Assembly (NCBI GenBank): GCA_002435835.1
Contig: DIVM01000107.1
Coordinates: 1 to 16,855, forward strand
DNA from: Firmicutes bacterium UBA6132
GTDB lineage: Bacteria > Bacillota_A > Clostridia > Tissierellales > Sedimentibacteraceae
DNA: 16,855 nucleotides
Direction of reading: 5' to 3'
The position numbers and the translations under genes were made by a program. Below are positions 1 through 16,855 of the stretch, piece by piece. The notes beneath the pieces were generated by a model that was not told the DNA's origin, did not search any database, and saw only the letters and a program-made list of their open reading frames with translations. Every line of letters starts with the position of its first letter. The stretch's first letter is position 1.

Positions 1-1
1 A

Positions 2-382: not shown

Positions 383-407
383 TCAAATTATAAAAAGGAT
401 TATTTAT

Positions 408-1097: not shown

Positions 1098-1178
1098 TAA
1101 AAATATATTAAATAAAACTAATAATTGATTAAATATAATATTCATGACTTTACTTTACTTATGATTTAGGAGAAAATA

Positions 1179-3092: not shown

Positions 3093-3094
3093 TT

Positions 3095-3111
3095 AGTTCA
3101 AATTTTGAACT
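3095..3111 (+). promoter_or_regulatory. Perfect dyad, likely upstream activator site
   Basis: AGTTCAAATTTTGAACT is a perfect 8-bp inverted repeat around one central T; with one mismatch it extends to AATT...GATT (3091-3115). It starts 3 bp after the regulator's stop codon and is centred about 164 bp upstream of the predicted sigma-54 start point, a normal place for an enhancer-binding protein site. Binding by the adjacent regulator is inferred. Confidence 0.6.
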
Positions 3112-3138
3112 GATTATGTATAAAATAATAACATGTTA

Positions 3139-3190
3139 AAAAAAGTATGGCAAACATTTTAATGGAACAAAATGTTTGCCATACTTTTTT
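3139..3190 (+). terminator. Perfect 22-bp hairpin, rho-independent terminator of the regulator gene
   Basis: The left arm (3139-3160) and right arm (3169-3190) are perfectly complementary over 22 bp around an 8-base loop (AATGGAAC). The arms end in A6 on the left and T6 on the right, so the structure could stop transcription in both directions. The core is GTATGGCAAACA. It lies 46 bp after the regulator and upstream of the predicted start point of the next operon, so it separates the two transcripts. Confidence 0.85.
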
Positions 3191-3191
3191 G

Positions 3192-3208
3192 TGTTCAAAT
3201 TCTCAAAT
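3192..3208 (+). promoter_or_regulatory. Second, degenerate copy of the activator dyad
   Basis: TGTTCAAATTCTCAAAT matches the perfect dyad at 3095-3111 in 13 of 17 positions, with the left half-site GTTCAAATT intact. It is centred 97 bp after the first copy and about 67 bp upstream of the predicted start point. Two sites would suit cooperative binding of an activator, but in AT-rich DNA chance similarity is possible. Confidence 0.4.
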
Positions 3209-3239
3209 AAGTAATTTATATAAAGTTTTTGTTAATGTT

Positions 3240-3256
3240 TTGGCACAGAAAATGCT
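3240..3256 (+). promoter_or_regulatory. Sigma-54 (-24/-12) promoter of the catabolic operon
   Basis: TTGGCACAGAAAATGCT fits the TTGGCAC-N5-TTGCT consensus with a single mismatch (A for the first T of TTGC). The invariant GG (3242-3243) and GC (3254-3255) are exactly 10 bases apart. The predicted start point is near 3267, leaving a leader of about 27 bases before the first gene. The neighbouring sigma-54 activator makes this assignment strong. Confidence 0.85.
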
Positions 3257-3280
3257 ATTAATATATATGAATACAACATT

Positions 3281-3286
3281 GGGAGG
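3281..3286 (+). promoter_or_regulatory. Ribosome-binding site fixing a TTG start
   Basis: GGGAGG lies 7 bases before TTG at 3294. It decides the start of the beta subunit, because the in-frame ATG at 3147 lies inside the terminator hairpin and upstream of the predicted transcript start. Confidence 0.8.
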
Positions 3287-3293
3287 GAAAAAA

Positions 3294-3800
3294 TTGCAAA
3301 TATCTATGCCAGTTTCAGATTCGTTAATTAAAGAATTGAAAGTAAATGATACAGTAGAAATAACAGGAATTATATATTGTGGGAGAGATGCTGTTCTTCC
3401 TAAAATAGCTGAGCTACTCAAAAATGGGGAATGGAGTGAAATGGGGATAGACTTAAATGGATCAGCTATTTTTCATACAGCAGTAAGTCCTGCAGGTATA
3501 GGTCCAACATCAAGCAATAAAGTTGATATAGAATCTTCTATTCCTGAATTGTCTAAAGCAGGAATCAAATTTCACATAGGAAAGGGAAGTTTAAGTAAGG
3601 AATCTGTTGAAGCTTTAAAAAAATATAATTCTATATTTCTTGTTACACCACCAAATACAGCTCTGTTAACTTCTAAAATAACTAAAAAAGAAATAGCCGC
3701 ATTTGAAGATGAAGGTATGGAAGCTTTTAGCAGAATAGAAGTTGTAAATTTTCCAGCAATAGTTGCTATTGCACACGGAGAATCTATTTTTGACAAATAA
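3294..3800 (+). CDS. Class I fumarase/mesaconase/tartrate dehydratase-type hydro-lyase, beta subunit
   Basis: From the TTG start this is a 168-residue protein matching the C-terminal (beta) part of iron-sulfur fumarases. Visible family features are TGIIYCGRDAVLPKI (24-38), the segment SPAGIGPTSSNKVD (65-78, where the family has an AGPTTSxRMD-like stretch) and GKGSLS (96-101). It should pair with the alpha subunit encoded next to form a [4Fe-4S] enzyme that adds or removes water on a dicarboxylate such as fumarate, mesaconate or an analogue. The ATG 147 bp upstream is excluded by the terminator and promoter positions. The beta gene precedes alpha here, while most bacteria use alpha then beta. 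The neighbouring ammonia-lyase suggests it hydrates that enzyme's unsaturated product; the exact substrate is inferred. Confidence 0.85.
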   Translation: MQISMPVSDSLIKELKVNDTVEITGIIYCGRDAVLPKIAELLKNGEWSEMGIDLNGSAIFHTAVSPAGIGPTSSNKVDIESSIPELSKAGIKFHIGKGSLSKESVEALKKYNSIFLVTPPNTALLTSKITKKEIAAFEDEGMEAFSRIEVVNFPAIVAIAHGESIFDK

Positions 3801-3810
3801 AGGAGTCACT

Positions 3811-4668
3811 ATGATTAAATATGAAGATTTAGTTAATAAAACTGCAGAAACTCTTGTTAATGCTAGCACAATTTTTAGTCCTGACAAAATAGAAGCATAT
3901 GAAAGAGCTATAGAAGCAGAAGAAAATCCTAATGCAAAATGGGTACTACAAAGTATTATAGAGAATAGCTCTGTAGCAAAGGAAATAAAATTTCCCTTAT
4001 GTGATGATACAGGGATACCACATATTTTTTTAGAAATAGGTGATAGCGCAGTACTACCAAAAGGATTTATTAATGCCATTAAAGAAGGAGTAAAAATAGG
4101 ATTACGCCAACTTCCGGGAAGACCAATGGCAGTGAAAGGTAATGATAGAGAACGAATAAGTCAATGTTGTGGTTTATCTGAGGATTCTGGTGACCTACAA
4201 ATGGCACCTATTCAAATAAGAGAGTTAAAAGACAGTGACAAAGTTTTACTAACAGTTTTAATGTTAGGCGGAGGTCCAGAAATAAGAGGAAAAACTTTGA
4301 GAGTATTCCACAAGCATTCAGATGAAGTTGTAATAAATGAAATGGTAGAGTGGGCTAAAGAAGGATGTGACAAACTTGGTTGTCTACCAGCTGTTTTAGG
4401 TTTTGGAATAGGAAGAACGAATTTAGAAGCTGCTTCATTATCACTTGAAGCTATGAGACATGGTAATTTCTTAATACAATCGGATATAGAAAAGGAAATT
4501 ACTGATAAAGTAAATGAATCAAATATTGGACCACTAGGTCTTGGGGGCAAAACAACTGTTTTAGGAACATTTGTTAAAGTAGGGCCTCAAAGGGCAAGCG
4601 GCGTAAGGATAGTATCTATGAGAGTGGGATGCTGTTTTGACCCAAGAAAAGCGACTGTAATATTATAA
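3811..4668 (+). CDS. Class I fumarase/mesaconase/tartrate dehydratase-type hydro-lyase, alpha subunit
   Basis: This 285-residue subunit carries the [4Fe-4S] site. Family landmarks are PLCDDTG with C64, MLGGGPEIRGKT (151-162), CLPAVLGFGIG with C191, GPLGLGGKTT (240-249) and a last cysteine pair C274-C275 (VGCCFDPRKA), where the family usually has QCHAAR. Three cluster cysteines are therefore available. AAGGAG overlaps the beta stop codon and lies 5 bases before ATG 3811; an in-frame ATG at 3763 lies inside the beta gene and has no such site. Together with beta it should form a cytoplasmic, oxygen-sensitive hydratase. In Clostridium tetanomorphum a related enzyme hydrates mesaconate to citramalate after methylaspartate ammonia-lyase, and the same pairing occurs here. 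Fumarate or tartrate as substrate cannot be excluded. Confidence 0.88.
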   Translation: MIKYEDLVNKTAETLVNASTIFSPDKIEAYERAIEAEENPNAKWVLQSIIENSSVAKEIKFPLCDDTGIPHIFLEIGDSAVLPKGFINAIKEGVKIGLRQLPGRPMAVKGNDRERISQCCGLSEDSGDLQMAPIQIRELKDSDKVLLTVLMLGGGPEIRGKTLRVFHKHSDEVVINEMVEWAKEGCDKLGCLPAVLGFGIGRTNLEAASLSLEAMRHGNFLIQSDIEKEITDKVNESNIGPLGLGGKTTVLGTFVKVGPQRASGVRIVSMRVGCCFDPRKATVIL

Positions 4669-4745
4669 CGAGTCGAAGATGTCCCCACCTATAGGTGGTA
4701 TCGCCCGACTCGTTGAAGTGGTGTGATGCAATTGCAAACAATTGC
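4667..4745 (+). other. Nested hairpin element in the gap between alpha subunit and amidohydrolase
   Basis: A 9-bp outer stem (AACGAGTCG 4667-4675 with CGACTCGTT 4706-4714) encloses a perfect 14-bp palindrome CCACCTATAGGTGG (4685-4698), with internal loops of 9 and 7 bases. A second hairpin follows: GCAATTG (4728-4734), loop CAAA, CAATTGC (4739-4745), then TTTAT. The first structure begins within the alpha stop codon and is much richer in GC than its surroundings. It has no U-tract, so it is not a simple terminator. I do not recognise a known riboswitch. An mRNA processing or stability element, a partial attenuator or a small mobile palindromic repeat are options. Confidence 0.6.
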
Positions 4746-4800
4746 TTTATACTTAAAAAATAATATTCAAATATAAAAGTAAAACATTGGGAGGATTAAA

Positions 4801-6147
4801 ATGATTATTTTAAAAGATGGTGTTGTTGTTACAGGTGATGGTGTTACTCTTTATGAAAAAGCAAGTGTGCTTATCAGGGGCAATGAAATATTGGATGTAA
4901 CAGAAAGATTGGATCCAGCTCTTGAATCATATGCAGAGGAAGTTATAGATTGTACGGGCAAATGTATAATGCCAGGTATGATAAATCAGCATCAACATGG
5001 AGTTACTTTTGGACCTGTATTTGCAAGTGGAATGGTTAACTACGGCAGAGAAAGAATAATGGAATTATTGGACAGAAACTTTTTACAAGGTTGTACAACT
5101 GTGTTAAATGTTGATGGTTTCGTAACAATGGATGAGGTTAAAGAAACTCAAAAACATCATCCTATGAGAATTAAAACTGCAACAACACATGCTCCAATCA
5201 ATTTTGAAGCAGGAATGAGATGCGATGGCAAGGGGTTAGCAGAAAAACACAAATTAATGGAAATTGAAAAAATGTTTGCTAATGGAGCTGTATGTATTGG
5301 TGAAGTTGGAGGAGGCCACACTCTTGGTGGAGGCGGTCAGGATTATTTATATATTCCAAAAGCAGTTAAAGAATTAAAAGGTATTGATATAGATTATTTA
5401 CAAGCTCGTGCAATGAAATTATCTGTTTTAGGAAGATACATAGAAGAAAGCTATTATGACAGAGACAGAGTTGCTGCTGCTTTAAAAGAACATAATTTAG
5501 ACAGCTTTTTAACTCCTGAAGAAACAAGAGAACTTATTTATAAAACAACATTAGCATCAGTAAAAGTTGCTCTTGATGGATATTTAGAAGCAGGACATAT
5601 TGCAAAGAAATTAGATGTTCCATTATTGTGTCATAATGCACCAACATCTAAAAAAATAATTCATGAAGTAGCGAAATTAGGTATAAACAAATTTGTTGCA
5701 TGTCATTCTAACTACTTATTTACTAAAGAAGAAGCAGTTGAAAATACAAAATATTTGAAACAATACAGCGGGGTAATAATTGAAGTATGTACACATGATC
5801 CTTGGGGAGCTAAGAGATTGGTTTCAACTCCTGAAAACTTATATGCATTCTATGAAGAGGACTTAACGGATGTAGTATCTACAGACTTTGCTAACGGAAG
5901 CTTCGATTCAATGCTTGAAGCAGTAGAGCACGGGGTAGAGTTAGGATTAGTATCACTTCCAAAAGCAATTGCTCAATGTACTAAAAATGTAACTGAAGCT
6001 ATTCCTTTATTAGCTCCTAATTTAGGACAACTAAAAGAAGGATACACAGCTGACGTATTAGTAACTTCATATCCAAATGTATCTAATGTTGAAAGAATAT
6101 ATATTGACGGTAAATTAGTTGCAAAAGACGGAAAGAGATTAGTATAA
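4801..6147 (+). CDS. Metal-dependent amidohydrolase, probable lactam/ring-opening hydrolase
   Basis: This 448-residue enzyme has the amidohydrolase superfamily metal site: H64-Q-H66 after PGMINQ, E168 in IGEVGGGH as the likely bridging ligand in place of a carboxylated lysine, H278 (LLCHNAP), H302 (ACHSNY) and D362 (STDFA). An N-terminal beta-sandwich strand pair and a C-terminal DG-K-LV strand close the usual small domain. GGGAGG at 4790-4795 supports the ATG. Its IGEVG segment and its neighbours recall enamidase of Eubacterium barkeri nicotinate fermentation, but it is longer and has an extra segment around 170-240. Cytoplasmic hydrolysis of a cyclic amide made by the reductase of this operon is the likely role (inferred). 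Other cyclic amides or deamination remain possible. Confidence 0.85.
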   Translation: MIILKDGVVVTGDGVTLYEKASVLIRGNEILDVTERLDPALESYAEEVIDCTGKCIMPGMINQHQHGVTFGPVFASGMVNYGRERIMELLDRNFLQGCTTVLNVDGFVTMDEVKETQKHHPMRIKTATTHAPINFEAGMRCDGKGLAEKHKLMEIEKMFANGAVCIGEVGGGHTLGGGGQDYLYIPKAVKELKGIDIDYLQARAMKLSVLGRYIEESYYDRDRVAAALKEHNLDSFLTPEETRELIYKTTLASVKVALDGYLEAGHIAKKLDVPLLCHNAPTSKKIIHEVAKLGINKFVACHSNYLFTKEEAVENTKYLKQYSGVIIEVCTHDPWGAKRLVSTPENLYAFYEEDLTDVVSTDFANGSFDSMLEAVEHGVELGLVSLPKAIAQCTKNVTEAIPLLAPNLGQLKEGYTADVLVTSYPNVSNVERIYIDGKLVAKDGKRLV

Positions 6148-6343
6148 GTAATAAACGTGATAGGTAGAAAAATCGATAAATTGGGAGTAATTGTAAGAAA
6201 TAAATACTAATTGTAAGATTTAGGTAAAAAAGCGAAAGAAAAATATTAATTATTGCAAAAATTCAAGTGTTAGGTATTTTTTTCGACAAAGTTCTACAAA
6301 AAAACGAATAAAAAATATATTATAATATAAATGGAGGATTGAA
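6148..6343 (+). other. 196-bp AT-rich gap with short phased repeats
   Basis: No ORF, RNA gene or clear hairpin is visible. It contains three similar motifs, TAGGTAGAAAAATCGA (6161-6176), TAGGTAAAAAAGCGA (6221-6235) and TAGGTATTTTTTTCGA (6271-6286), spaced 60 and 50 bp apart. An 11-bp direct repeat TAATTGTAAGA lies at 6188-6198 and 6208-6218. The gap could hold an internal operator or a second promoter for the genes that follow, or be decayed DNA. Confidence 0.35.
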
Positions 6344-7594
6344 ATGAAAGTTAAAAAAGTATTGTGTACAAAAGCTATGACAGGTTTTTATATGGATGAT
6401 AAAGAAGCTATAAAAAGAGGAGCTCAAGAAGATGGCTTTGTATATAAGGGAGAACCTGTAACAAAAGGGTTTAAAACTATTAGACAGCCTGGACAAGCGG
6501 TATCAGTTATGTTCGTGTTAGAAAACGGTGAAGTTGCATATGGTGATTGTGCAGTTGCTCAGTATGCTGCAAGCGGTGGAAGAGAAGTTCCTAATTCATC
6601 AGAAGCTTTAATAGAAGTTATAGAAGAATATGTAACTCCAATGTTCGAAGGAATGGATATAACAGAATTTAAATCAACAGCAGAAGAATTTGATCGTAAA
6701 TTATTTAATGGAGTACAACTTCCAGCATCTATAAGATACGGTGTTACTCAAGCAATACTTGAAACAGTAGCAAAATCAAAAAATATTACAATGGCAGAAG
6801 TAGTAATAGATGAGTATGGTCTTGAAATAGATTTAACTCCAGTAAGAATAAATGCTCAATCTGGAGATGAAAGATATACAAATGTTGATAAAATGATATT
6901 AAAAGAAGTTGGCATGATGCCTCATGGTTTGATCAACAACGTAAAAACTAAATTAGGTGAAGATGGTCAAATATTCTTGGATTGGGTTAAATGGGTTAAC
7001 AACAGAATAAAAGAAATAGGAGATCCAAGCTATAATCCTGTTATGAGATTTGATGTGTATGGATGTATGGGATATGCTTTCAATGATGATTTAGATAAAG
7101 TTTTTGATTATTTATTAAAAGTTGAAGAAGCTTGTAAACCACATACAGTATTTGTTGAAATGCCAATAGATTTAAAGGATAATGAAAAACAAAAGCAAGG
7201 ATTTAGATACTTAAGAAAGAGACTAAGTGAAGTTGGTTCTACATTAAAATTGATAATAGATGAATATGCAAATACATATGAAGAAATTGTTGAATGGGTT
7301 GATGCTAAAGCTTGCGATATGGTTCAAGTTAAAACTATTGACCTTGGAGGAATTAACAACATCATAGAAGCAGTATTGTATTGCAAGAAAAATGGTGTCT
7401 TAGCTTATCAAGGTGGTACATGTAATGAAACTGATAAATCAGCATTAGTATGTGTTAACCTTGCAGTTGCTACAAAACCTTTTGCTATGGCTGGAAAACC
7501 TGGTATGGGCGTTGATGAAGGTGTCATGATAGTAAATAATGAACAACAAAGATTATTAAAAATATTAGAAGCAAAGAAAAATAACCTTATTTAA
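6344..7594 (+). CDS. 3-Methylaspartate ammonia-lyase homologue, probably with altered substrate
   Basis: This 416-residue enolase-superfamily protein aligns over its full length with methylaspartate ammonia-lyase (about 413 residues), which turns 3-methylaspartate into mesaconate and ammonia. By my memory of the C. tetanomorphum enzyme, the catalytic set is kept: metal ligands D237, E272 and D306, general base K330 (VQVKT), H194 (MPHGLINN), Q73, Q172, Q328 and the GGTCNET stretch with T359 and C360. Two pocket positions differ: N170 where that enzyme has Phe170, and A383 where it has Leu384; C357 is also replaced, by Q356. GGAGG at 6333-6337 supports the ATG. No glutamate mutase genes are nearby, so the amino acid is probably not made from glutamate. 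I infer a 3-substituted aspartate formed by the amidohydrolase, with the product passed to the hydro-lyase. Confidence 0.88.
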   Translation: MKVKKVLCTKAMTGFYMDDKEAIKRGAQEDGFVYKGEPVTKGFKTIRQPGQAVSVMFVLENGEVAYGDCAVAQYAASGGREVPNSSEALIEVIEEYVTPMFEGMDITEFKSTAEEFDRKLFNGVQLPASIRYGVTQAILETVAKSKNITMAEVVIDEYGLEIDLTPVRINAQSGDERYTNVDKMILKEVGMMPHGLINNVKTKLGEDGQIFLDWVKWVNNRIKEIGDPSYNPVMRFDVYGCMGYAFNDDLDKVFDYLLKVEEACKPHTVFVEMPIDLKDNEKQKQGFRYLRKRLSEVGSTLKLIIDEYANTYEEIVEWVDAKACDMVQVKTIDLGGINNIIEAVLYCKKNGVLAYQGGTCNETDKSALVCVNLAVATKPFAMAGKPGMGVDEGVMIVNNEQQRLLKILEAKKNNLI

Positions 7595-7604
7595 GGAGAA
7601 TAAC

Positions 7605-9131
7605 ATGATTAAAGTTAGTATTGATAAGTGCATTGGATGTAGAGAGTGTTATAAAGTTTGTCCTATGAACGCAATTGAAATGGTAGATAAAAAAGCTAAT
7701 ATCAATGAAAATTGTGTTAATTGCATGAGCTGTATTAAGGTTTGTAAATATGATGCGCTTGAAGAAGTATTAAATACTAACACTGACTCCATAGTTTGTA
7801 TGAACTGTGGAGTTAGGTGTATAATTCCAAATGGAAAAATGGGTGCTTGTAAAAGATTTACAAATTTAGAAGGTACTTTGTTAAGAAATAGACCATTACA
7901 AATTCCTGACAATATAGAACCTAATAGAGAAAAAATAGCTATAAGTAAACCTCTGATAACTGCTGTTGGAGCTGGTGCAAGCTATCCAGATTACCATCCA
8001 GCACCGTATATTGTTGAAGAAAAAATTGATGATTTTGATGTTGTTACTGTTGTTACTGAAGCACCAATATCCTACAGCTCTATGATGGTGAAAATCGATA
8101 CCAATAAGTATATTGGTAAAGAAGGCGCCATTGTTAGAAGGGATGGCAAAGAAGTAGGAACAGTGAGCACTGAACAATATGGTTCTCAAATAATAATTCT
8201 TGGTGGAGTTAACAGAGTTAAAGGACCACATGGTATGACTGTTGTTAAAACAATGGCTGAAATAGGAAATAAAAAACAAGTTAGATTAAAAATTGATGAA
8301 GGGGCTGTCCTGGATATACAAGTTGGAAAATCTCCAATAGTTGATGGTGTTGAAGATACTAAAATGAGAGTTGGATGTGGAGGAGCATGCTGCGGGCTTT
8401 TCGCTAAACATTTAGGACAATTAATAGATGAAGCAATAATTTTAGACCACCATATTACTGGATTGTTTACTAAGCATCCAGCAGGCGCAGAACAACTTCC
8501 ATATAGTGGAGTTACACCAGTTGGTAGGCTTGCTACAAATGGAAGATATTTCTTTGAGCATGGAAAAGGCTGGGGTGGAACTAATATAGAAAATCCTATT
8601 GAAGCAATAAAACATATTGATATGAACATCGCAAAAGTAGGTATGAAAATATTGGTTGCAGAAACAACATGGCGACAAATTGCATTATATGAAGTTAATG
8701 AAGAAGGAAAACCTGTAGAAATTGAAATACCTGAAGAATTAGAAAAATTCAGACAATTGGCAGCAGGAAATTGCGAAGAAAGTAAAGTATCAGCTATGTA
8801 CTATGCAGGTGTTGGCGGAAGTGCAAGAGCTGGTGTTACAATAAATCCTATTATGCTTACACAAGCAGTGCATAAAGGTGATGCAGTTTTAAGTATTGCA
8901 GGAGCTGAAACGTTTATTATGCCAGGAGGAGGAATTACATTTTTAGCAGATGTAGAAAAAATGGTTGATGAACCATTTAATTATACAGCATCCCCTGCAG
9001 TATTAGCACCAATAGAGTATACGATCGTAAAAGAAAAATACGATAAAATAGGAGGTCATATTAAATCTGTTAGTAAATTAGAGGATGTAAAAAAAGAAGG
9101 AAGATTTGAGTATACTAAATTAAAAAGATAG
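7605..9131 (+). CDS. Ferredoxin-type iron-sulfur flavoprotein reductase, 6-hydroxynicotinate reductase-like
   Basis: This 508-residue protein starts with a two-cluster ferredoxin domain (C9, C12, C15, C19 and C37, C40, C43, C47). Next is a further set, C65-x2-C68-x3-C72-x9-C82, and the body carries C258, C262 and C263 (GCGGACC). This suits two [4Fe-4S] clusters plus a third cluster, as reported for E. barkeri 6-hydroxynicotinate reductase, which has two [4Fe-4S], one [2Fe-2S] and covalent flavin. The motif S301-G-V-T304-P resembles FMN attachment sites of NqrB and RnfD, so T304 is a candidate flavin carrier. AAGGAG overlaps the previous stop codon and the gap is 10 bp. The likely role is ferredoxin-dependent reduction of a hydroxylated N-heteroaromatic acid in the cytoplasm. 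The family call rests on memory and context, not a search. Confidence 0.78.
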   Translation: MIKVSIDKCIGCRECYKVCPMNAIEMVDKKANINENCVNCMSCIKVCKYDALEEVLNTNTDSIVCMNCGVRCIIPNGKMGACKRFTNLEGTLLRNRPLQIPDNIEPNREKIAISKPLITAVGAGASYPDYHPAPYIVEEKIDDFDVVTVVTEAPISYSSMMVKIDTNKYIGKEGAIVRRDGKEVGTVSTEQYGSQIIILGGVNRVKGPHGMTVVKTMAEIGNKKQVRLKIDEGAVLDIQVGKSPIVDGVEDTKMRVGCGGACCGLFAKHLGQLIDEAIILDHHITGLFTKHPAGAEQLPYSGVTPVGRLATNGRYFFEHGKGWGGTNIENPIEAIKHIDMNIAKVGMKILVAETTWRQIALYEVNEEGKPVEIEIPEELEKFRQLAAGNCEESKVSAMYYAGVGGSARAGVTINPIMLTQAVHKGDAVLSIAGAETFIMPGGGITFLADVEKMVDEPFNYTASPAVLAPIEYTIVKEKYDKIGGHIKSVSKLEDVKKEGRFEYTKLKR

Positions 9132-9142
9132 CGGAGGTTATC

Positions 9143-11077
9143 ATGAAAGAGTTTTTGTTAAATTATAAAGATGGCGGGAAAAAAAGAAAAATTTCCGGTA
9201 ATGATAAAAAGATAGTAAGATGGATTGCTATAATTATGTCCATTTATCAGCTGTGGCAAAGCGTTTTCTCGTCCATGCAGCCACAAATGCATTACGCGAT
9301 ACATTTAACTTTTATATTAGTAATGTGTTACCTATATTTTACACCTGCACAAAACAAAGATAGGTCTAAAATTACTAAAATAGATTATGCAATGGCTATA
9401 TTAATAACAGTAATTGGTGTTTACTATGTATCACAAATGGGCAGATATTTAGTTAGGTGGCCTCAAATAGATCCTTTGAGTATACCGGATATAGTATTTG
9501 GTTTTATATTATCTATATTAGTAATTGATGCAACAAGAAGATGCATGGGCATTGTTCTTCCATCTATTGGAATAATATTTTTATCATATGCTCTGTTTGG
9601 AGATTTGCTTCCAGGGTCATTTGGACATAGATTTATTCCACCTATAGATATATTAGACCAGCTTGTTTTTACAACAAACGGATTATTTACATCACCTATA
9701 GCTGTTGCATCAACATTTGTATTTTTGTTCTGTTTGTTTGGCTCATTTTTCAGCTATTCAGGAGCAGGTGCTTTTTTCCATAAGTTTTCATTAGCTATTG
9801 CAGGAAAATATGCTGGTGGTGCTGGAAAAGTATCAGTTGTATCAGCAGGATTATTTGGTATGATTAACGGAAGCCCTACGGCAAACGTTGCAACAATTGG
9901 TTCATTTACAATACCTATGATGAAAAAAGATGGATATGACTCTGTATTTGCAGGTGCTATATCAGCAGTATCATCAACAGGAGGCGGTATAATGCCACCT
10001 ATTATGGGTACGGCAGCATTTTTGATGGTTGAAATGGCTGGTGTTCCGTATAAAGAGATAGCTATTGCAGCTTCAGTTCCAGCAATACTATATTATGGAT
10101 CGCTTTTATTCATGTGCCATTTAAGAGCAAAGAAAACTGGTATTAAAGGATTGCCTGCTTCAGAACTCCCTGACTTAAAAGAAACATTAAAAGAAGGGTT
10201 CTTGTTTGTTTTACCTTTGATAGTATTAGTAGCTATGATTATGACGGGTTACACACCATCTATGGCAGCTGTTGCAGGTATAGTTTGTGTTATAATTGCA
10301 AGTTCATTGAAAAAGGAAACAAGAATGAGTTTGAAAACAATACTTGATGCATTAGAAGACGGAGCTTTATCATCAATAATAGTATCATTATCCTGTGCTG
10401 TTGCAGGTATGGTAATCTGTGGGTTAATGACAACAGGATTAACTGGTAAAATAGCAAGTTTAGTATTAAGCGTTGGCGGAGGTACAATGTTAGGTGCTTT
10501 AATGATTACAGCAGCTCTATGTACACTCCTTGGTATGGGAATGCCAGTTGCTGCTGCATATGCTTTAACGGCATCTTTAGCAATACCATCATTAATAGAA
10601 TTAGGTGTTCCTCTTATAGCAGCTCATATGTTTGTTGTATATTATTCAACATTTTCAGCTATAACACCTCCAGTTGCAGTTGCAAGTTATGCAGCAGCAG
10701 GTATAGCGGATGCAAGCGCAACAAAAATTGGATGGATGGCTTGCAGGATAGGAGTAGTATGCTTTATCATACCATTTATGTTTGTTTTTGATCCTGCAAT
10801 GTTGTGCGCACCTTCAGCATTCTTAGAGGTTGGAACATATATAATGATAATTAGCGCTGTATTGGGATGCTACTCTTTAAGTGCAGGTTCAGAAGGATTT
10901 TTGATAACTAAGTTAAACCCTGTATTTAGGGCAATATTATTTGTAGGTGGTTTTTGTATGATTTACCCAGAAACAATTACTTCAATAGTAGGTTTTGTGG
11001 CTTTTGGTTTAATTTATGCTTTTGATTTAATTAAGAGCAAAAAATTAAGTGAAAAAATAGCAGTAACAAAAAATTAA
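9143..11077 (+). CDS. TRAP transporter permease, fused 4TM/12TM (TAXI-associated)
   Basis: This 644-residue membrane protein fuses the small (DctQ-like) and large (DctM-like) TRAP subunits, as is usual for TAXI-type systems. Hydrophobic segments begin near residue 27 and continue to the C-terminus. Family motifs include GMINGSPTANVATIGSFT (239-256), GGGIMPPIMG (280-289), and in the second half MGMPVAAAYALTASLAIP with SAITPPVAVASYAAAGIA. It should import a carboxylate substrate using a Na+ or H+ gradient, together with the binding lipoprotein encoded next. GGAGG at 9133-9137 supports the ATG, and the gap after the reductase is 11 bp. Its place inside the catabolic operon argues that it carries the operon's growth substrate; TAXI systems studied so far favour dicarboxylates and amino acids. 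Confidence 0.93.
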   Translation: MKEFLLNYKDGGKKRKISGNDKKIVRWIAIIMSIYQLWQSVFSSMQPQMHYAIHLTFILVMCYLYFTPAQNKDRSKITKIDYAMAILITVIGVYYVSQMGRYLVRWPQIDPLSIPDIVFGFILSILVIDATRRCMGIVLPSIGIIFLSYALFGDLLPGSFGHRFIPPIDILDQLVFTTNGLFTSPIAVASTFVFLFCLFGSFFSYSGAGAFFHKFSLAIAGKYAGGAGKVSVVSAGLFGMINGSPTANVATIGSFTIPMMKKDGYDSVFAGAISAVSSTGGGIMPPIMGTAAFLMVEMAGVPYKEIAIAASVPAILYYGSLLFMCHLRAKKTGIKGLPASELPDLKETLKEGFLFVLPLIVLVAMIMTGYTPSMAAVAGIVCVIIASSLKKETRMSLKTILDALEDGALSSIIVSLSCAVAGMVICGLMTTGLTGKIASLVLSVGGGTMLGALMITAALCTLLGMGMPVAAAYALTASLAIPSLIELGVPLIAAHMFVVYYSTFSAITPPVAVASYAAAGIADASATKIGWMACRIGVVCFIIPFMFVFDPAMLCAPSAFLEVGTYIMIISAVLGCYSLSAGSEGFLITKLNPVFRAILFVGGFCMIYPETITSIVGFVAFGLIYAFDLIKSKKLSEKIAVTKN

Positions 11078-11091
11078 ATTTGGAGGATTTT

Positions 11092-12138
11092 ATGAGAAAA
11101 AATTTAACAAAAAAAGTATCACTTTTATTGGCATTGGTAATGATTTTAAGTTCTTTCATTGTAGGTTGTGACAGAGGTGGGAAAACAGAGCAAGCACCAG
11201 CGAATAACACTACAAATTCAACTCAACCAAGCACTGATGTAGAAAAATTAAAATTAACAATAGCTGGTGGATCAATTGGTGGTGCATGGGCAGCTATAGG
11301 CGAAGGTGTTAGTGAAGTTATTAGAAGAAGTTATCCAGGATCAGAAGTAGCTTATGAAGTTGGTCAAGAAGCTGCAAACGTAGCAATGGTTAGTACTAAC
11401 AAAGTTCAATTAGGTGTTGCACATGCGAGCTTTTTAAAAATGGCTTCAGATGGTGTTGAACCATTCCCAAAAAAACTTGAAAATTTAAGAGCACTTGCAG
11501 TTTTATACGGCGAAGCTGCAGAACATTTCTTAATTTTGCAAGATGCGGGAATAACAAATTTTGAAGATTTAAAAACTAAAAAGTATCCTTTAAAAATTAA
11601 TTTTAATACAAAAGATTCATTTATGGAAATAGTAGGTAAGAAAACTTTAGAAGCGAATGGTATTACGTATGAAGATATTAAATCTTGGGGTGGTAATGTA
11701 GACTTCATGTCAATGGGATCATCCATAGACTTAATGAGAGACGGAAAAATTGAAGCTTACTCAAATGTTATACAAGTACCATCAAGCAACATAGTTGATG
11801 CTTCAAGTAACTTAAAATTAACTTTACTTCCTATGTCTAAAGAAGTACAAGCAAAATTAAATAGTGAATTAGGAACTTATGATGCAGTAATTTCAAAAGA
11901 TAAATATAATTTCTTAACAGAAGATGTACCAACTGTTGCTGCTAAAGTTGTATTGTTTACAAATGCTGAACTTTCTGATGCAGAAGCATATGCTATAGTA
12001 AAATCAATAGATGAAAATCTTGAATATTTTACTGGAATTCACAGTTCATTAAAAGGATTAACTTTAGAAACATTACAGGATGTTGCTCCAGTTGAATTGC
12101 ATCCAGGTGCATTAAAATATTATCAAGAAAAAAAATAA
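11092..12138 (+). CDS. TRAP transporter solute-binding lipoprotein, TAXI family
   Basis: This 348-residue protein begins with a lipoprotein signal peptide: basic residues (RKNLTKK), a hydrophobic core (VSLLLALVMILSSF) and the lipobox I-V-G-C with C26 as the lipidated residue. A Thr/Asn/Ser/Pro-rich linker precedes the first strand, LTIAGGSIGGAWAAIGEGVS, the typical opening of TAXI receptors. It should sit on the outer face of the membrane and hand substrate to the fused permease encoded just before it. The ATG at 11092 is preceded by GGAGG at 11082-11086; an in-frame TTG at 11080 overlaps that site and is not credible. Order is permease then receptor, with 14 bp between them. The ligand is unknown; a (hetero)cyclic or linear carboxylate is inferred from the operon. 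Confidence 0.92.
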   Translation: MRKNLTKKVSLLLALVMILSSFIVGCDRGGKTEQAPANNTTNSTQPSTDVEKLKLTIAGGSIGGAWAAIGEGVSEVIRRSYPGSEVAYEVGQEAANVAMVSTNKVQLGVAHASFLKMASDGVEPFPKKLENLRALAVLYGEAAEHFLILQDAGITNFEDLKTKKYPLKINFNTKDSFMEIVGKKTLEANGITYEDIKSWGGNVDFMSMGSSIDLMRDGKIEAYSNVIQVPSSNIVDASSNLKLTLLPMSKEVQAKLNSELGTYDAVISKDKYNFLTEDVPTVAAKVVLFTNAELSDAEAYAIVKSIDENLEYFTGIHSSLKGLTLETLQDVAPVELHPGALKYYQEKK

Positions 12139-12167
12139 AAATTAGTTAGTTTTTATAGGAGGGCCAT

Positions 12168-13043
12168 ATGATGCTGACAGATAAATATACAATATTAAAT
12201 GATGGAAGGGTGTTAGTTGATTATGGTCCTATTACAATGACAATTCAAGCAAAAAAGCAAGGTGAAATTTCCATTGAATCAGAATTAATAGGTGCAGAAA
12301 AAGCGATAGAAACATTAAAATGCCTAACAAATTACTTGGATGTGGCAAAAAAGTGGATTAATGAAATTGATTTATGCAAAGCTCATTATTATCCAAGGGC
12401 TTTGAAAATGATGATAGAATCTGTAAAATATTTGAGAAATAATGAATTTACTCCCATGGCATCTGTTGCAGGAACATTTTCAGATTTAGTGATGGAAGAA
12501 ATCCTTCTAAAAACTGATATGGATTATGTTGTTATAAATAATGGGGGAGATATTGCTTTTTATAAAAAAGATATAAACAGTGTTTTTAAAGCAGGAATAA
12601 TTGGTGATATTACAACAAGAAATATATCACATAGCATAAATATAAAATGTTCAAGCGGAATAAAAGGAATAACTACGAGTGGTTATGGAGGAAGAAGTTT
12701 AACTAAGGGTGTTGCTTCTGCAGTAACCGTTGTAGCTAAAAGTTCGAGTTTAGCAGATGCAGCTGCAACAGAAATAGCAAACTGCACATACATAGACAGC
12801 CCAAATATTGAAACTTGTTTAGCAGAAAATATTGATTTTGATACTGATATTAAAGGTATAAGGGTAGTAAAAACTTTAGGAAATTTAACTAACGAAGAAA
12901 AGTTTAAATCCATTAATAAGGGTTTAGAAAAAACTATGGAACTATATGAGCGTAAAATGATAAAGGGTGCAGTTATATTTGTTCAAGGCGAATATGATTA
13001 CTATCCTAAAAATAACCTTGATTTTACTATATGCAAGAAATAA
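12168..13043 (+). CDS. UPF0280 family protein, ApbE-like; candidate flavin transferase
   Basis: This 291-residue cytoplasmic protein matches the uncharacterised UPF0280 group, which belongs to the ApbE-like fold. Three stretches recall ApbE flavin transferases: NNGGDIA (124-130), GITTSG (167-172) and ADAAATEIAN (196-205), where ApbE has its GGDI, ATSG and ADA-x-AT magnesium/FAD-site motifs. There is no lipobox, unlike exported ApbE. AGGAGG at 12157-12162 serves the ATG at 12168 or the one at 12171; either is possible. The gene lies between the TAXI receptor and the molybdenum hydroxylase, in an operon with a reductase that carries a possible FMN attachment motif. Covalent flavin loading of that reductase is my inference; no activity is established for the family as far as I know. 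Confidence 0.8.
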   Translation: MMLTDKYTILNDGRVLVDYGPITMTIQAKKQGEISIESELIGAEKAIETLKCLTNYLDVAKKWINEIDLCKAHYYPRALKMMIESVKYLRNNEFTPMASVAGTFSDLVMEEILLKTDMDYVVINNGGDIAFYKKDINSVFKAGIIGDITTRNISHSINIKCSSGIKGITTSGYGGRSLTKGVASAVTVVAKSSSLADAAATEIANCTYIDSPNIETCLAENIDFDTDIKGIRVVKTLGNLTNEEKFKSINKGLEKTMELYERKMIKGAVIFVQGEYDYYPKNNLDFTICKK

Positions 13044-13045
13044 TG

Positions 13046-13051
13046 CGGAGG
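13046..13051 (+). promoter_or_regulatory. Ribosome-binding site fixing the molybdenum subunit start
   Basis: CGGAGG lies 5 bases before ATG 13057, directly after the UPF0280 stop codon. It rules out the in-frame ATG at 12967, which would overlap UPF0280 by 77 bp and add 30 residues that are not part of the family. Confidence 0.8.
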
Positions 13052-13056
13052 TTAAC

Positions 13057-15342
13057 ATGAAATATATAGGAAATAAACAAAATTTTTTAGAAGCTAAAGA
13101 AAAAGTATGCGGAAAAGCTAAATATTTGGATGATTTAGTTATTCCAAATATGCTTTACAGCAAAATACTTCGTTCGCCTCATCCACATGCAAGAATATTA
13201 AGCATAGATACATCAGAAGCTGAAAATCTTGAAGGAGTAAAAACTGTAATAACATCAAAAGACTGTCCAGAAATTAAGTTTGGGTTAGATGCACCTGATG
13301 TAACAATGTTAGCAATAGATAAAGTAAGATATGTTGGTGATGAAGTTGCTGCGGTTGCTGCAGAAACAGAAGAAATAGCTGAAGAAGCTATTAAATTAAT
13401 AAAAGTTGACTATGAAATATTACCTGTGGTGGATGATGTGTTAAAAGCTATGGAAGATGGTTCAGCCTTAGTTCATGAAGAATTTAAAAACAATTTAGCT
13501 AAAGAATATCATTTTTCAAGAGGTAATGTGGAAGAAGATTTTGCTTCTTGTGATTATGTATTTGAAGATGAATTCAGCACACACAGAGCTCAAGGTTTAT
13601 ATATGGAACCTTTTGGTGCAATAGCTAAATGGGAAGAGAATGGTAGGCTTACTATTTATACAGGATTACAGGCATCATTTCAAGGAAGAAATGAAATATC
13701 TAAAGCATTAGGAATTGAACCTTCTAAAATAACTATTAAGTCTCCATTTATAGGTGGTGGCTTTGGAGCTAAAATATGGATTAGAAATTTCCATCCAATT
13801 GTAGCTATATTAGCACAAAAAACTAATAGACCTGTAAAATTAATATTGACAAGAGAAGAAGAAATGCTTACCACAAGACCAAGAGTTGCGCCAAAAATAA
13901 AAATGAAATTGGGCATGATGAAAGACGGAACTATGGTAAGCAAACAATTTACAATAATTGCTGACAATGGAGCATACTCATGGGCAGCGCCAAAAATATT
14001 GTTAAATATGTCCATAAGAACTGACTGTTTATATAGATTTAAATCTACAAAAACTGATTCTTATTTAGTTTATACAAATTTAATTCCTACAAGTGGATTT
14101 AGAGGATATGGAAACAGCCAGGGGCATTTTGCCATGGAGTCTTTTATAGATGTATGCGCAAGAAAAATTGGTTTAGATCCATTACAGGTTAGGTTGAAAA
14201 ATGCAGTGCAAAAGGGCGATTTGACTTTGCATGGATGGAAAATAAAAAGTTGCGGTTTGACAGAATGTTTAACAGCTGCTAAAGAATCTATTGAAAAAAG
14301 TAAACTTCCAAAAGAAGATAAAAACGGAAGAATTAAAAGAGGTATAGGCATAGCATGTATGAATCACGTATCAGGAAACAGAGGCGGAGACAAATATGAT
14401 GGTTCCTCTGCAATGATTAGAATGCATGAAGATGGAAAAGTTTTTGTATTTTCTGGAGAGTCTGATTTAGGACAAGGATCAAATACAATATTTGCTCAAA
14501 TTACTGCTGAAGTATTAGGAATTAATATAGAAGATATCACTATAATGCCACTAGACACTGATATAAGCCCATTTGCACTTGGCACTTATTCAAGTAGGGT
14601 GACTACTGTAGGTGGTAAAGCTGTTATGATTGCAGCAAAAGAAATAAGAGAACAAATAATAGCTCTTGCATCTGTTGAATTAAAAATACCTAAAGATGCA
14701 TTAAATATTGAAGATGGAATTGTTTATTACAAAGGTGACAGCAAGAAAAATATATCAATAAAGAAATTATGCGAATTAGCTATTAGAACTAATAGATCAA
14801 TACCTTTTACAACATATATAAGCTATGATCCTCCTACTGTAGGTGCTGATGCAAGCGGATATGGAGACTATTCAAGCGCTTATACCTACGGTGCTCATGG
14901 AGTTGAAGTTGAGGTTGACACATTAACTGGACATGTTAAAGTTATTAAAGTTGCCGCAGCACACGACGTAGGAAAAGTAATAAATCCAAATGGTGTTATA
15001 GGTCAAATAAATGGTGGAGTAGCTCAAGGTATTGGATGGACACTTTATGAAAATATGCAATTTAAAGATGGTATTCCACAAAGTAGGGGATTACATCAAT
15101 ATACTTTAATGACAATGAAAGATATGCCAGAAATTGAAAGTATAATAATCGAAACAAATGATCCAATTGGACCTTTTGGAGCTAAGGGAATTGGTGAACC
15201 TACCTTAATACCTACAGCACCAGCGATTGCTAATGCAATAGAGGATGCAGTTGGTGTTAGAATAAAAGACTTACCTATTACTCCGGAAAAAGTTTACAGA
15301 GCTCTACAGAATAAACAAGGAGGCAAAAATGGTGAAAGTTAA
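13057..15342 (+). CDS. Xanthine dehydrogenase-family molybdenum hydroxylase, Mo-cofactor subunit
   Basis: This 761-residue subunit has the aldehyde oxidase/xanthine dehydrogenase a/b hammerhead domain at the N-terminus (about 15-125), followed by the molybdopterin-binding domains. Landmarks are FIGGGFGAK (231-239), GFRGYG with R349, SDLGQGS (469-475) and GAKGIGE with E714, the expected catalytic base. It should hydroxylate a carbon next to a ring nitrogen, with water as oxygen source, and pass electrons through the 2Fe-2S and FAD subunits encoded next. Order is Mo, FAD, 2Fe-2S. E. barkeri nicotinate dehydrogenase splits this subunit in two; here it is a single chain. No cofactor-insertion (XdhC-like) gene is seen. 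Its place suggests it makes the first hydroxylated intermediate; xanthine or an aldehyde cannot be excluded by sequence alone. Confidence 0.92.
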   Translation: MKYIGNKQNFLEAKEKVCGKAKYLDDLVIPNMLYSKILRSPHPHARILSIDTSEAENLEGVKTVITSKDCPEIKFGLDAPDVTMLAIDKVRYVGDEVAAVAAETEEIAEEAIKLIKVDYEILPVVDDVLKAMEDGSALVHEEFKNNLAKEYHFSRGNVEEDFASCDYVFEDEFSTHRAQGLYMEPFGAIAKWEENGRLTIYTGLQASFQGRNEISKALGIEPSKITIKSPFIGGGFGAKIWIRNFHPIVAILAQKTNRPVKLILTREEEMLTTRPRVAPKIKMKLGMMKDGTMVSKQFTIIADNGAYSWAAPKILLNMSIRTDCLYRFKSTKTDSYLVYTNLIPTSGFRGYGNSQGHFAMESFIDVCARKIGLDPLQVRLKNAVQKGDLTLHGWKIKSCGLTECLTAAKESIEKSKLPKEDKNGRIKRGIGIACMNHVSGNRGGDKYDGSSAMIRMHEDGKVFVFSGESDLGQGSNTIFAQITAEVLGINIEDITIMPLDTDISPFALGTYSSRVTTVGGKAVMIAAKEIREQIIALASVELKIPKDALNIEDGIVYYKGDSKKNISIKKLCELAIRTNRSIPFTTYISYDPPTVGADASGYGDYSSAYTYGAHGVEVEVDTLTGHVKVIKVAAAHDVGKVINPNGVIGQINGGVAQGIGWTLYENMQFKDGIPQSRGLHQYTLMTMKDMPEIESIIIETNDPIGPFGAKGIGEPTLIPTAPAIANAIEDAVGVRIKDLPITPEKVYRALQNKQGGKNGES

Positions 15343-16204
15343 TAAATATTTATATCCTAAATCAGTGGATGAAGCAATAAATTTATTAAATGAATATGAA
15401 GGCAAAGCCAAAGTTGTTGCGGGAGGAACTGACTTAGTTCTATGGTTAAAATCTGGCAAAGTTAAAGCTGAAGTTTTAATAGACATAGCAAATATTGATG
15501 AATTAAATGAAATTATAATTCAAGACAATAATATTGCATTGGGTTCCTGTGTAACATGTACTGAAATTTCTGTTAATAAGAATATTAAAAAAATTTTTAA
15601 AGGTTTAGCAGATGGTTGTAGAAGTGTTGGATCTCCACAAATTAGAAATATTGCAACAATTGGCGGAAATATAGTTAGTGCACAGCCTGCTGGAGATGTT
15701 GGTGTAAATTTTGTAGCTCTTGAAGCAAGATGCGAAGTTGCTTCTATAAATGGAAGAAGAATTGTAAAGGTGGAAGATTTATATTTAGGTTTAGGCAAAA
15801 GCATAATAGATTCATCAAAAGAAATCATAACAAAAATATTTATTGATATACCACAAAATGAATATACAACGTCTTTTGAAAGAATTGCTCCAAGAAATTC
15901 CTTAGCTCTACCTATAATAAATGTAGCAGCTAAATTAGAAGTAGAAAACAATATAGTAATAAATCCAAAATTAGTGATTTCCCCTGTATCAACTATTCCT
16001 TTTAGAGCTAAGAAAACAGAAGAATATTTAAAAGGAAAAGATATCTCTGATGAAAGTATAATTGAATTAGCTTCAATAGAAGCTTTCAATGAAGCTAATC
16101 CAAGAGATAGTTTATTAAGAGGAACTGGAGAATATAGAAAAGTTTTAGTAAAAGATTTAGTTTATAAAGCATTAGATTCTGCTAGATGCAATTTAGTTAA
16201 GTAA
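15329..16204 (+). CDS. Molybdenum hydroxylase FAD-binding subunit
   Basis: This 291-residue protein is of the CoxM/XdhB type. The FAD-binding PCMH domain shows AGGTDL (31-36) and the segment around residues 101-114 ending ATIGGN, followed by SAQPAGD, all typical flavin contacts. A smaller C-terminal domain starts near residue 180. It should take electrons from the 2Fe-2S subunit and pass them to NAD+ or another acceptor. AAGGAGG at 15317-15323 supports the ATG at 15329, giving a 14-bp overlap with the molybdenum subunit gene, a sign of translational coupling. Confidence 0.92.
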   Translation: MVKVNKYLYPKSVDEAINLLNEYEGKAKVVAGGTDLVLWLKSGKVKAEVLIDIANIDELNEIIIQDNNIALGSCVTCTEISVNKNIKKIFKGLADGCRSVGSPQIRNIATIGGNIVSAQPAGDVGVNFVALEARCEVASINGRRIVKVEDLYLGLGKSIIDSSKEIITKIFIDIPQNEYTTSFERIAPRNSLALPIINVAAKLEVENNIVINPKLVISPVSTIPFRAKKTEEYLKGKDISDESIIELASIEAFNEANPRDSLLRGTGEYRKVLVKDLVYKALDSARCNLVK

Positions 16205-16217
16205 GCGAGGTGAGAAT

Positions 16218-16697
16218 ATGCAAGAAATTAAATTCAATTTAAATGATGAAGATGTAACAGTGTTGGTAGACCCTAATAAAACCTTGTTAAAAGTTTTAAG
16301 AGAAAATCTTGGACTTACCGGAGTTAAAGAAGGTTGTGGGGAAGGCGAATGTGGTGCATGTACTGTAATTTTTGATTCAAAACCTGTTAATGCATGTATT
16401 ATACCAGCAGCAAAAGTGCATGGCAAAAAAGTTATAACAATTGAAGGTTTAAGTAAAAATGGACAACTTCATCCAATACAAGAAGCTTTCGTAGAAGCCG
16501 GAGCTATTCAATGTGGTTTTTGTACACCAGGTGTAGTACTTTCTACAAAAGCTATTCTTGATAAATATGATGATCCTGATGAAGAAACTATTAAAGATGA
16601 ATTATCAGGTCATTTATGCAGATGTACAGGATACTTGCAATTTTACGATGCTATAAAAATAGCAGTTGAAAAAGTTAAAGAATTAAATAAAAAATAA
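16218..16697 (+). CDS. Molybdenum hydroxylase 2Fe-2S subunit
   Basis: This 159-residue protein has the standard two-cluster arrangement. The plant-type ferredoxin domain uses C40, C45, C48 and C60 (GCGEGECGACT...NAC), and the helical domain uses C99, C102, C134 and C136 (QCGFC...LCRC). The length is normal for the CoxS/XdhC-type small subunit. It moves electrons from the molybdenum centre to FAD. A GAGGTGAGA stretch (16206-16214) before ATG 16218 serves as ribosome-binding site, and the gap after the FAD subunit gene is 13 bp. It completes a three-subunit hydroxylase. Confidence 0.95.
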   Translation: MQEIKFNLNDEDVTVLVDPNKTLLKVLRENLGLTGVKEGCGEGECGACTVIFDSKPVNACIIPAAKVHGKKVITIEGLSKNGQLHPIQEAFVEAGAIQCGFCTPGVVLSTKAILDKYDDPDEETIKDELSGHLCRCTGYLQFYDAIKIAVEKVKELNKK

Positions 16698-16724
16698 ATT
16701 TCTAAAGGAAAGAGGACATGATTG

Positions 16725-16855
16725 ATGAGCGAAGTTAAAATGTTTACACCCATAAAAATAAAGAACCTACAACTTCCCAATAGGGTAATGATGTCTCCAA
16801 TGTTTTCTAATTCAGCAGGGGAGAACGGTGTTGTAACTCAAAATACAATTAAACA
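16725..16855 (+). CDS. Old yellow enzyme/2,4-dienoyl-CoA reductase-type oxidoreductase, N-terminal part (runs past window)
   Basis: Only about 43 residues are visible, starting MSEVKMFTPIKIKNLQLPNR and continuing with VMMSPMFSNSAGENG. This is the typical N-terminus of FMN-dependent old-yellow-enzyme reductases (FxPIKIxNLxLxNRVxMSPM), the first strand of a TIM barrel. The ATG at 16725 is served by GGAAAGAGG (16707-16715); the nearer ATG at 16718 reads only five more codons before a stop. It follows the 2Fe-2S subunit by 27 bp and probably belongs to the same operon. Enzymes of this group reduce C=C bonds next to a carbonyl or carboxylate. A second ring or enoate reduction step is inferred. Whether it has the C-terminal [4Fe-4S] and FAD domains cannot be seen here. 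Confidence 0.8.
   Translation, partial: MSEVKMFTPIKIKNLQLPNRVMMSPMFSNSAGENGVVTQNTIK

Follow-up and report, generated by a model that had tools for sequence, protein, structure and literature searches.

A conserved operon with a proposed role in anaerobic quinolinate breakdown through a 3-substituted aspartate

The contig of Firmicutes bacterium UBA6132 analysed here (DIVM01000107.1, positions 1 to 16,855; this whole 16,855-nucleotide stretch is referred to as the window) raises the question of what substrate could require both enzymes of the kind that attack pyridine rings and a homologue of methylaspartate ammonia-lyase (MAL) in a single operon. The operon is real, conserved and unexplained by the two textbook pathways that it resembles, nicotinate fermentation and the methylaspartate pathway. 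We propose, with a probability of about 0.6, that it serves to break down quinolinate anaerobically to an acetyl unit and 2-oxoglutarate, with 3-(2-carboxyethyl)aspartate and homocitrate as intermediates. The broader claim, that the pathway runs through a 3-substituted aspartate of some kind whose substituent is larger and polar, is one that we hold with considerable confidence. The gene set, its conservation, the acid-cleaving lyases of relatives and the altered pocket of the MAL homologue are established directly. An initial annotation of the window had named a molybdenum hydroxylase (Mo-hydroxylase), a 6-hydroxynicotinate-reductase-like protein (Hnr-like), a ring-opening amidohydrolase (AH), the MAL homologue, a mesaconase-like hydratase and an enoate-type reductase; all are present on the forward strand, the last only as 43 codons, and the name of the second is weakly based. 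The list is extended here by a UPF0280-type protein and a TRAP-TAXI transporter within the run and by a PrpR-type sigma-54 activator upstream of it. The features of the window are as follows.

1179..3092, + strand: PrpR_N / sigma-54-dependent transcriptional activator, probable operon regulator (Pfam PF06506, PF00158)
3267..3800, + strand: fumarase-type hydratase beta subunit, FumB/TtdB-like (PF05683)
3811..4668, + strand: fumarase-type hydratase alpha subunit, FumA/TtdA-like (PF05681; TIGR00722, 133 bits vs 101)
4801..6147, + strand: amidohydrolase AH, proposed lactam (ring-opening) hydrolase
6344..7594, + strand: MAL homologue with altered substituent pocket (TIGR01502; aligned to 1kcz/3zvi)
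7605..9131, + strand: Hnr-like iron-sulfur protein (2[4Fe-4S] ferredoxin domain)
9143..11077, + strand: TRAP transporter fused permease (TIGR02123, 606 bits)
11080..12138, + strand: TAXI-type solute receptor of the TRAP transporter (PF16868)
12168..13043, + strand: UPF0280-type protein (NF003322, 183 bits, below the cut-off of 290)
13057..15342, + strand: Mo-hydroxylase large subunit (PF02738, PF20256, PF01315)
15329..16204, + strand: Mo-hydroxylase FAD subunit (PF00941, PF03450)
16218..16697, + strand: Mo-hydroxylase 2Fe-2S subunit (NCBIfam XdhC-type models, best 190 bits vs cut-off 217)
16725..16855, + strand: OYE-type enoate reductase, first 43 codons (131 bases) before the window edge (from translation)

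In the proposed pathway, the substrate would be imported by the TRAP-TAXI transporter, a role that in some relatives would fall to a tricarboxylate-type transporter, and the Mo-hydroxylase would convert quinolinate (pyridine-2,3-dicarboxylate) to 6-hydroxyquinolinate. The Hnr-like protein would reduce the ring to a cyclic enamide, and the OYE-type enoate reductase would saturate its C2=C3 bond to give 6-oxopiperidine-2,3-dicarboxylate, so that the nitrogen would remain on an sp3 carbon. AH would open this lactam to 3-(2-carboxyethyl)aspartate, from which the MAL homologue would eliminate ammonia to form homoaconitate (but-1-ene-1,2,4-tricarboxylate), and the fumarase-type hydratase, by analogy with mesaconase, would hydrate the latter to homocitrate. 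A citrate-lyase-type enzyme, or a CoA ligase acting with a citryl-CoA-lyase-type enzyme, would then cleave homocitrate to an acetyl unit and 2-oxoglutarate. The net reaction, for which the atom balance was computed, is quinolinic acid + 3 H2O + 2[H] -> acetic acid + 2-oxoglutaric acid + NH3. Quinolinate as the substrate, the saturation step and the identity of the cleaved acid as homocitrate are all inferred on chemical grounds. Because the ring would be fully saturated and opened to a beta-carboxylated amino acid, both the ammonia-lyase and the second reductase would have roles, and quinolinate is favored because, among the simple pyridine dicarboxylates, only the 2,3-isomer yields a 3-substituted aspartate. 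The suggestion of the initial annotation that both halves of the operon fit together via such an aspartate held when the pyridine carboxylates were worked through on structure, only the 2,3-dicarboxylate qualifying; nicotinate, picolinate and the pyridine-2,4-, 2,5- and 2,6-dicarboxylates were ruled out by this reasoning, since hydroxylation beside the nitrogen and opening of the resulting lactam would give no amino acid with a carboxylate on the beta-carbon, which MAL chemistry needs.

Conservation of the gene set and linked acid lyases

Relatives of the operon were found by a profile search of genome contigs in which 36 aligned AH homologues served as the query and which returned 16 loci; L014-L016, AH relatives of 35-43% identity from which the operon is absent, were excluded from the counts over 13 genomes. 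These genomes are Lutispora (G001), Cuneatibacter (G002), a Clostridiales bin, Candidatus Formimonas warabiya (G004), seven Synergistota-type records (Synergistota, Synergistales, Synergistaceae or Synergistes by title, and including Synergistota L-13, G008), a bin titled Desulfovirgula and one titled Dethiobacter; both G004 and G008 are titled complete. The AH, MAL and Hnr-like genes adjoin in 13 of the 13 loci fetched by AH, FumB and FumA occur in 12 of the genomes, and the UPF0280-type protein and all three Mo-hydroxylase subunits in 11; the misses lie at contig ends, the last two being those of the short contigs of G007 and G010. The OYE gene is found in all 11 genomes whose contigs extend to its place, and the enoate-reductase-type gene is therefore a fixed member of the set. 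Eight genomes encode it as a protein of 822-845 residues after the Mo-hydroxylase (one ORF intervenes in G009), with OYE, Fer4_20 and pyridine-nucleotide-reductase domains as read in G006; in G003, G011 and G013 the OYE domain is fused to an FlpD/MvhD domain, and the gene is placed after MAL instead. At L003:12703-15936, and in the homologues in L011 and L013, this OYE-FlpD/MvhD gene is followed within the operon by MetV-like (DUF5981) and MetF-like genes, and the enoate reductase may be coupled to methylene-tetrahydrofolate-reductase-type electron flow.

The MAL neighborhoods, whose comparison the initial annotation had proposed, were viewed in an independent search by MAL that covered 185 genomes of the phylum of Synergistota L-13, with 1.5 kb on each side. 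This search gave six further Synergistota cluster-type loci, in all of which AH adjoins MAL, as does the Hnr-like gene in five. In the AH-fetched and the MAL-fetched loci alike, the association of these genes exceeds chance.

Lyases of the citrate-lyase and citryl-CoA-lyase types cleave acids of the form HOOC-CH2-C(OH)(R)-COOH, and the family does not identify R. The initial annotation had predicted that a lyase-like gene would accompany the operon. Six relatives (G002, G003, G004, G005, G011 and G013) indeed have a citrate-type acid lyase within the cluster or next to it; within the window, whose edge cuts the downstream side, none of these lyases was matched. G006-G010 and G012 encode such a lyase away from the cluster, and G001 has neither lyase type. 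In G003, G011 and G013, FumA and AH are separated by four genes, whose families were read in G003 and whose homologues occupy this place in the other two. One encodes an ATP-grasp ligase subunit of the SucC type that weakly matches the ATP-citrate lyase citrate-binding domain (25.9 bits vs a cut-off of 26.8). The others encode a small ferredoxin, a SucD-type subunit whose nearest solved relative is succinyl-CoA synthetase alpha (293 bits, vs 170 for the citryl-CoA synthetase small subunit) and a citryl-CoA lyase. The citryl-CoA lyase exceeds the cut-offs of three subfamily models (for NF004869, 286 bits vs 212) and falls below those of three equivalog models, and its best solved relative is the citryl-CoA lyase 6hxp. 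Cuneatibacter has a complete citC-citD-citE-citF-citX set immediately upstream of FumB, in which citE is below its cut-off (327 vs 443) and the other four exceed the cut-off of at least one model; downstream citDEF genes are present as two sets in G004 and one in G005. A full-length CitF is encoded by 9 of the 13 genomes, and of the remaining four, G003, G011 and G013 have the citryl-CoA lyase; the partial CitF of G011 (28.3 bits) is over the Pfam cut-off, yet was not counted as a citrate lyase, the figure otherwise being 10/13. The linked genes thus belong to the same families as citryl-CoA synthetase/lyase and the citrate lyase CitDEF, but their proposed substrate is homocitrate rather than citrate. 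A NifV-type homocitrate synthase was uninformative, as it was matched in 13/13 genomes (four over the cut-off) but also in 14/14 controls. In Lutispora, a pair of AtuA (PF07287) and DUF4387 (PF14330) genes lies directly after the OYE gene (L021:11438-13129, - strand). The same AtuA adjoins 8 of 23 canonical MAL loci (defined below), those eight being without a FumA/B match in the viewed flank, and the pair is a candidate lyase or hydratase of branched hydroxy acids.

The substituent pocket of the ammonia-lyase homologue

The window MAL passes TIGR01502 over its full length (478 bits vs a cut-off of 286), and exactly one MAL over the curated cut-off, located in the cluster, is present in each of the 13 genomes. 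We compared 14 cluster MALs (from the window and the 13 genomes) with 20 full-length canonical MALs. The latter were drawn from 391 genomes of the class of Lutispora G001, in which 24 exceeded the cut-off, after removal of G001 and three with fragments; L055 (the G001 locus again), MAL matches below the cut-off and second fragments of G133 and G377 were left out. Glutamate mutase adjoins 19 of the 20 canonical MALs. The ten positions checked for catalysis and for ligand and metal binding (Q73, Q172, H194, D238, E273, D307, Q329, K331, T360 and C361) are all kept in the 14 cluster MALs. The methyl pocket of MAL is built by F170, Y356 and L384, as described in part of PMC7241714. The window MAL contains N170, as well as A383, which corresponds to L384 of the C. 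tetanomorphum enzyme, and the same substitutions run through the whole cluster group: position 170 is asparagine in 14/14 cluster MALs and phenylalanine in 20/20 canonical ones, and position 384 is alanine in 14/14 and leucine in 20/20, respectively. Further differences occur at position 382 (alanine in 14/14 vs glutamine in 19/20), position 168 (arginine or lysine in 13/14 vs proline in 20/20) and position 236 (arginine in 14/14 vs histidine in 20/20). A second sample, consisting of the six further Synergistota loci, three fragments from the class of G001 and one canonical MAL, added seven cluster-type MALs, all with N170 and A384, and three canonical MALs, all with L384 and, in both that cover the position, F170; the exception in the canonical set is L056, with threonine instead of proline at position 168. 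In total, F170N and L384A are found in 21/21 cluster MALs, against phenylalanine in 22/22 and leucine in 23/23 canonical MALs. Y356 is retained in 21/21 cluster MALs, and two of the three methyl-pocket residues are thus lost. In a 41-row tree of 20 cluster and 21 canonical MALs, which excluded the fragments L056, L057 and L058, the two groups lie on opposite sides of a 100/100 branch.

According to a passage of PMC4517298, MAL carrying L384A or L384G takes fumarates with large C2 substituents, and in the section of PMC7241714 on CaMAL, L384A alone lowers kcat on methylaspartate 1760-fold. The cluster MALs have alanine at the position altered in the engineered L384A enzyme (PDB 3zvi), but they are natural, and the change is combined with F170N and further changes. 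Judged from these residues, the pocket is altered as a larger, polar C3 substituent would require.

Alternative substrates and pathways

Some points weigh against the reading of the operon as a quinolinate route. Forty-one alignment columns split the cluster and canonical MALs at 90% or more, and the chance that two of the three pocket positions would be among those changed is P 0.027; in addition, MALs within one clade are not independent of each other. The linked lyase families are annotated for citrate, and a five-ring analogue that yields citrate therefore stays in play. For the MALs, the direction of the pocket change, from bulky hydrophobic to small polar and including the engineered change, is the weightier point.

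The first of the alternatives, which are taken in descending order of probability, applies the same logic to another ring, in which a 2,3-dicarboxylated pyrrole or another N-heterocycle would give a different 3-substituted aspartate. With pyrrole-2,3-dicarboxylate, 3-carboxymethylaspartate would lead to aconitate and then to citrate, which an ordinary citrate lyase would cut. The linked lyases do come from the citrate-lyase and citryl-CoA-lyase families, and the MAL pocket changes indicate only a larger and more polar substituent. On the other hand, 6-hydroxypyridine chemistry is named in the annotation of some Hnr relatives, and free aconitate would require only aconitase, not a dedicated fumarase-type hydratase. 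To our knowledge, pyrrole-2,3-dicarboxylate is uncommon as a metabolite; quinolinate is the de novo NAD precursor. We regard another ring as unlikely.

It is also conceivable that two pathways share one operon, with the Mo-hydroxylase, Hnr-like protein and AH acting on an unrelated heterocycle and MAL and the hydratase on an imported aspartate analogue. Clustering of genes by itself is no proof of one linear path. However, the gene order interleaves ring-attack and tail genes and is the same in clostridial-type genomes as in those of Synergistota, and in the MAL-found loci the partners recur, the Hnr-like gene adjoining in L058 and in five of the six further Synergistota loci and AH in all six, which makes such a division improbable.

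A variant of the nicotinate fermentation of Eubacterium barkeri, with AH as the enamidase, would account for the ring-attack genes. The E. barkeri system (nicotinate dehydrogenase, 6-hydroxynicotinate reductase and enamidase) is similar to the proposed pathway in its Mo-hydroxylase attack beside the nitrogen, Hnr-like reduction and amidohydrolase opening, but the cluster also conserves an ammonia-lyase, an enoate reductase and a fumarase-type hydratase, and in our proposal the nitrogen would be eliminated from a saturated amino acid instead of being released by enamidase. In the anaerobic nicotinate route, as set out in part of PMC9304392, the ring is half reduced and the enamidase opens it and removes the nitrogen together; the assertion of the initial annotation that nitrogen leaves via enamidase in this fermentation agrees with that account, and an ammonia-lyase and a second reductase would therefore have no job there. 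The OYE gene is conserved although it would be unneeded in the enamidase route, and it would provide the C2=C3 reduction that the lactam-to-aspartate route requires. No 2-methyleneglutarate mutase or dimethylmaleate hydratase was noticed among the annotated neighbors, many neighbors being unannotated and the genomes not having been searched as a whole. We consider the nicotinate variant very doubtful.

The classical (Barker) pathway of glutamate or methylaspartate fermentation has a tail that the MAL, fumarase-type hydratase and citrate-lyase-type genes would fit as well. The methylaspartate pathway (glutamate mutase, MAL, mesaconase and citramalate lyase) shares with the cluster a MAL, a fumarase-type hydratase and a lyase tail that gives acetate and a 2-oxo acid, and FumA/FumB-like matches flank 10 of the 20 canonical MALs as well. 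The cluster differs in that its amino acid is proposed to derive from a heterocycle and that its MALs form a separate clade with F170N and L384A. A genome-wide test for glutamate mutase (PF06368), which covered the genomes of the 13 relatives, found it in two (G003 and G012), on contigs other than that of the cluster; it is absent from the other 11, including the complete-titled Formimonas and Synergistota L-13 records. Neither the window nor the merged neighborhoods of the 13 loci gave a match to glutamate mutase, as the initial annotation had said of the sequence in view; together with the lyase in six relatives and the pocket change in the fitting direction, this agrees with its pathway logic. 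Glutamate fermentation was rejected because the mutase is missing in 11/13 genomes and the MAL pocket is different. Its combination with an unrelated adjoining Mo-hydroxylase module is the least probable of the alternatives, as the methyl pocket is altered in 21/21 cluster MALs, the Mo-hydroxylase, Hnr-like and AH genes are in the gene run of MAL wherever the contig extends, and the FumA/B beside canonical MALs are 25-39% identical to those of the cluster.

If the quinolinate reading is correct, the operon holds nearly all the genes needed to degrade quinolinate anaerobically and adds a new natural substrate class for MAL. No such quinolinate route was among the matches listed in open-access full texts; most subscription journals lie outside these, and a route may be printed elsewhere. 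Quinolinate is a neuroactive end of the kynurenine pathway, and the 'quinolinic acid degradation' module of gut studies is reportedly based on nadC alone. A function of this name is already scored in gut studies, as part of PMC10009533 indicates. The cluster MALs would also be ready-made enzymes for 3-substituted aspartates, a protein-engineering target according to a portion of PMC4517298. The cluster is carried by Lutispora saccharofermentans m25, Cuneatibacter sp. NSJ-177 and Candidatus Formimonas warabiya DCMF, and the reading is therefore directly testable in named strains.

Ring-attack enzymes, regulation and neighboring genes

All three Mo-hydroxylase subunits are present in the window, and the best solved relative of the large subunit is the alpha subunit of 4-hydroxybenzoyl-CoA reductase (435 bits). 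AH has a cyclic-amide-hydrolase-type fold, its sequence score of 24.6 being narrowly below the Pfam cut-off of 25, and no single subfamily stands out in the fold comparison. No NCBIfam model for 6-hydroxynicotinate reductase matched the Hnr-like protein. That label is borne by 3 of 120 Hnr homologues among the matches listed and by 6 of the 10 plasmid matches listed (39-42% identity); the name is the weakest-based of the gene names, as it derives from labels and not from comparison with the Eubacterium barkeri enzyme, and is used here only tentatively. The predicted structure has a pLDDT of 92.7; with the whole-protein model, Foldseek gave no solved relative at E <= 0.001 outside the N-terminal ferredoxin domain, and the VIA rows span chiefly residues 1-85. 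Residues C65, C68, C72 and C82 are invariant and could be ligands of an additional cluster in this iron-sulfur protein. The UPF0280-type protein, for which no Pfam match and no paper under its name were found, is 28.7% identical to a UPF0280-annotated protein of Sulfitobacter that adjoins Hnr and Mo-hydroxylase genes, and proteins of this type accompany Hnr genes in both Sulfitobacter and Pleomorphomonas (26-29% identity). The proteobacterial clusters, such as that on the Sulfitobacter plasmid NZ_CP081117.1, resemble ours in keeping Hnr, UPF0280 and three Mo-hydroxylase subunits together (28-41% identity), but no MAL is annotated within 21 kb on this plasmid, and its amidohydrolase gave no AH match; the neighbors there encode an ABC transporter and proteins labelled 'amino acid synthesis'.

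Synergistes jonesii has a close AH homologue (72%; 98 member sequences) and Cloacibacillus evryensis an Hnr homologue (71%), each as a single-gene homologue, and the cluster is probably present in Synergistota of the rumen and gut. Degradation of dihydroxypyridine (from mimosine), prompted by the S. jonesii homologue, was rejected for this cluster by reasoning, as 2,3- and 3,4-dihydroxypyridine are without carboxylates; the accessible portion of PMC12366334 gives no genes for it. In Formimonas, a UbiD decarboxylase, a fumarate-reductase-like flavoprotein and a UbiX-like flavoprotein (PF02441) lie immediately upstream of FumB (L004:4002-8199), and a UbiD homologue (71%) is located downstream in G003; these genes could possibly channel another pyridine carboxylate into the route.

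The co-directional gene run occupies 3267-16855 on the + strand, and its spacing and conservation suggest a single transcript. It begins with the hydratase, which is of the two-subunit class I fumarase type (PF05683 and PF05681). The FumB ORF opens at 3147, where its N-terminus is longer than in most homologues, and the ATG at 3267 is a more likely start than position 3240, from which the initial annotation had read it. No convincing sigma-54 promoter emerged in the window, the nine matches being at chance level (7.4 expected) and the best site, with one mismatch at 3241-3256, lying too near the FumB start. Homologues of the PrpR_N activator precede the cluster in G001, G003, G004, G011 and G013, and Cuneatibacter encodes a second, divergent PrpR_N sigma-54 activator beside citCDEFX (L002:1815-3836, - strand) that is 32% identical to that of the window.

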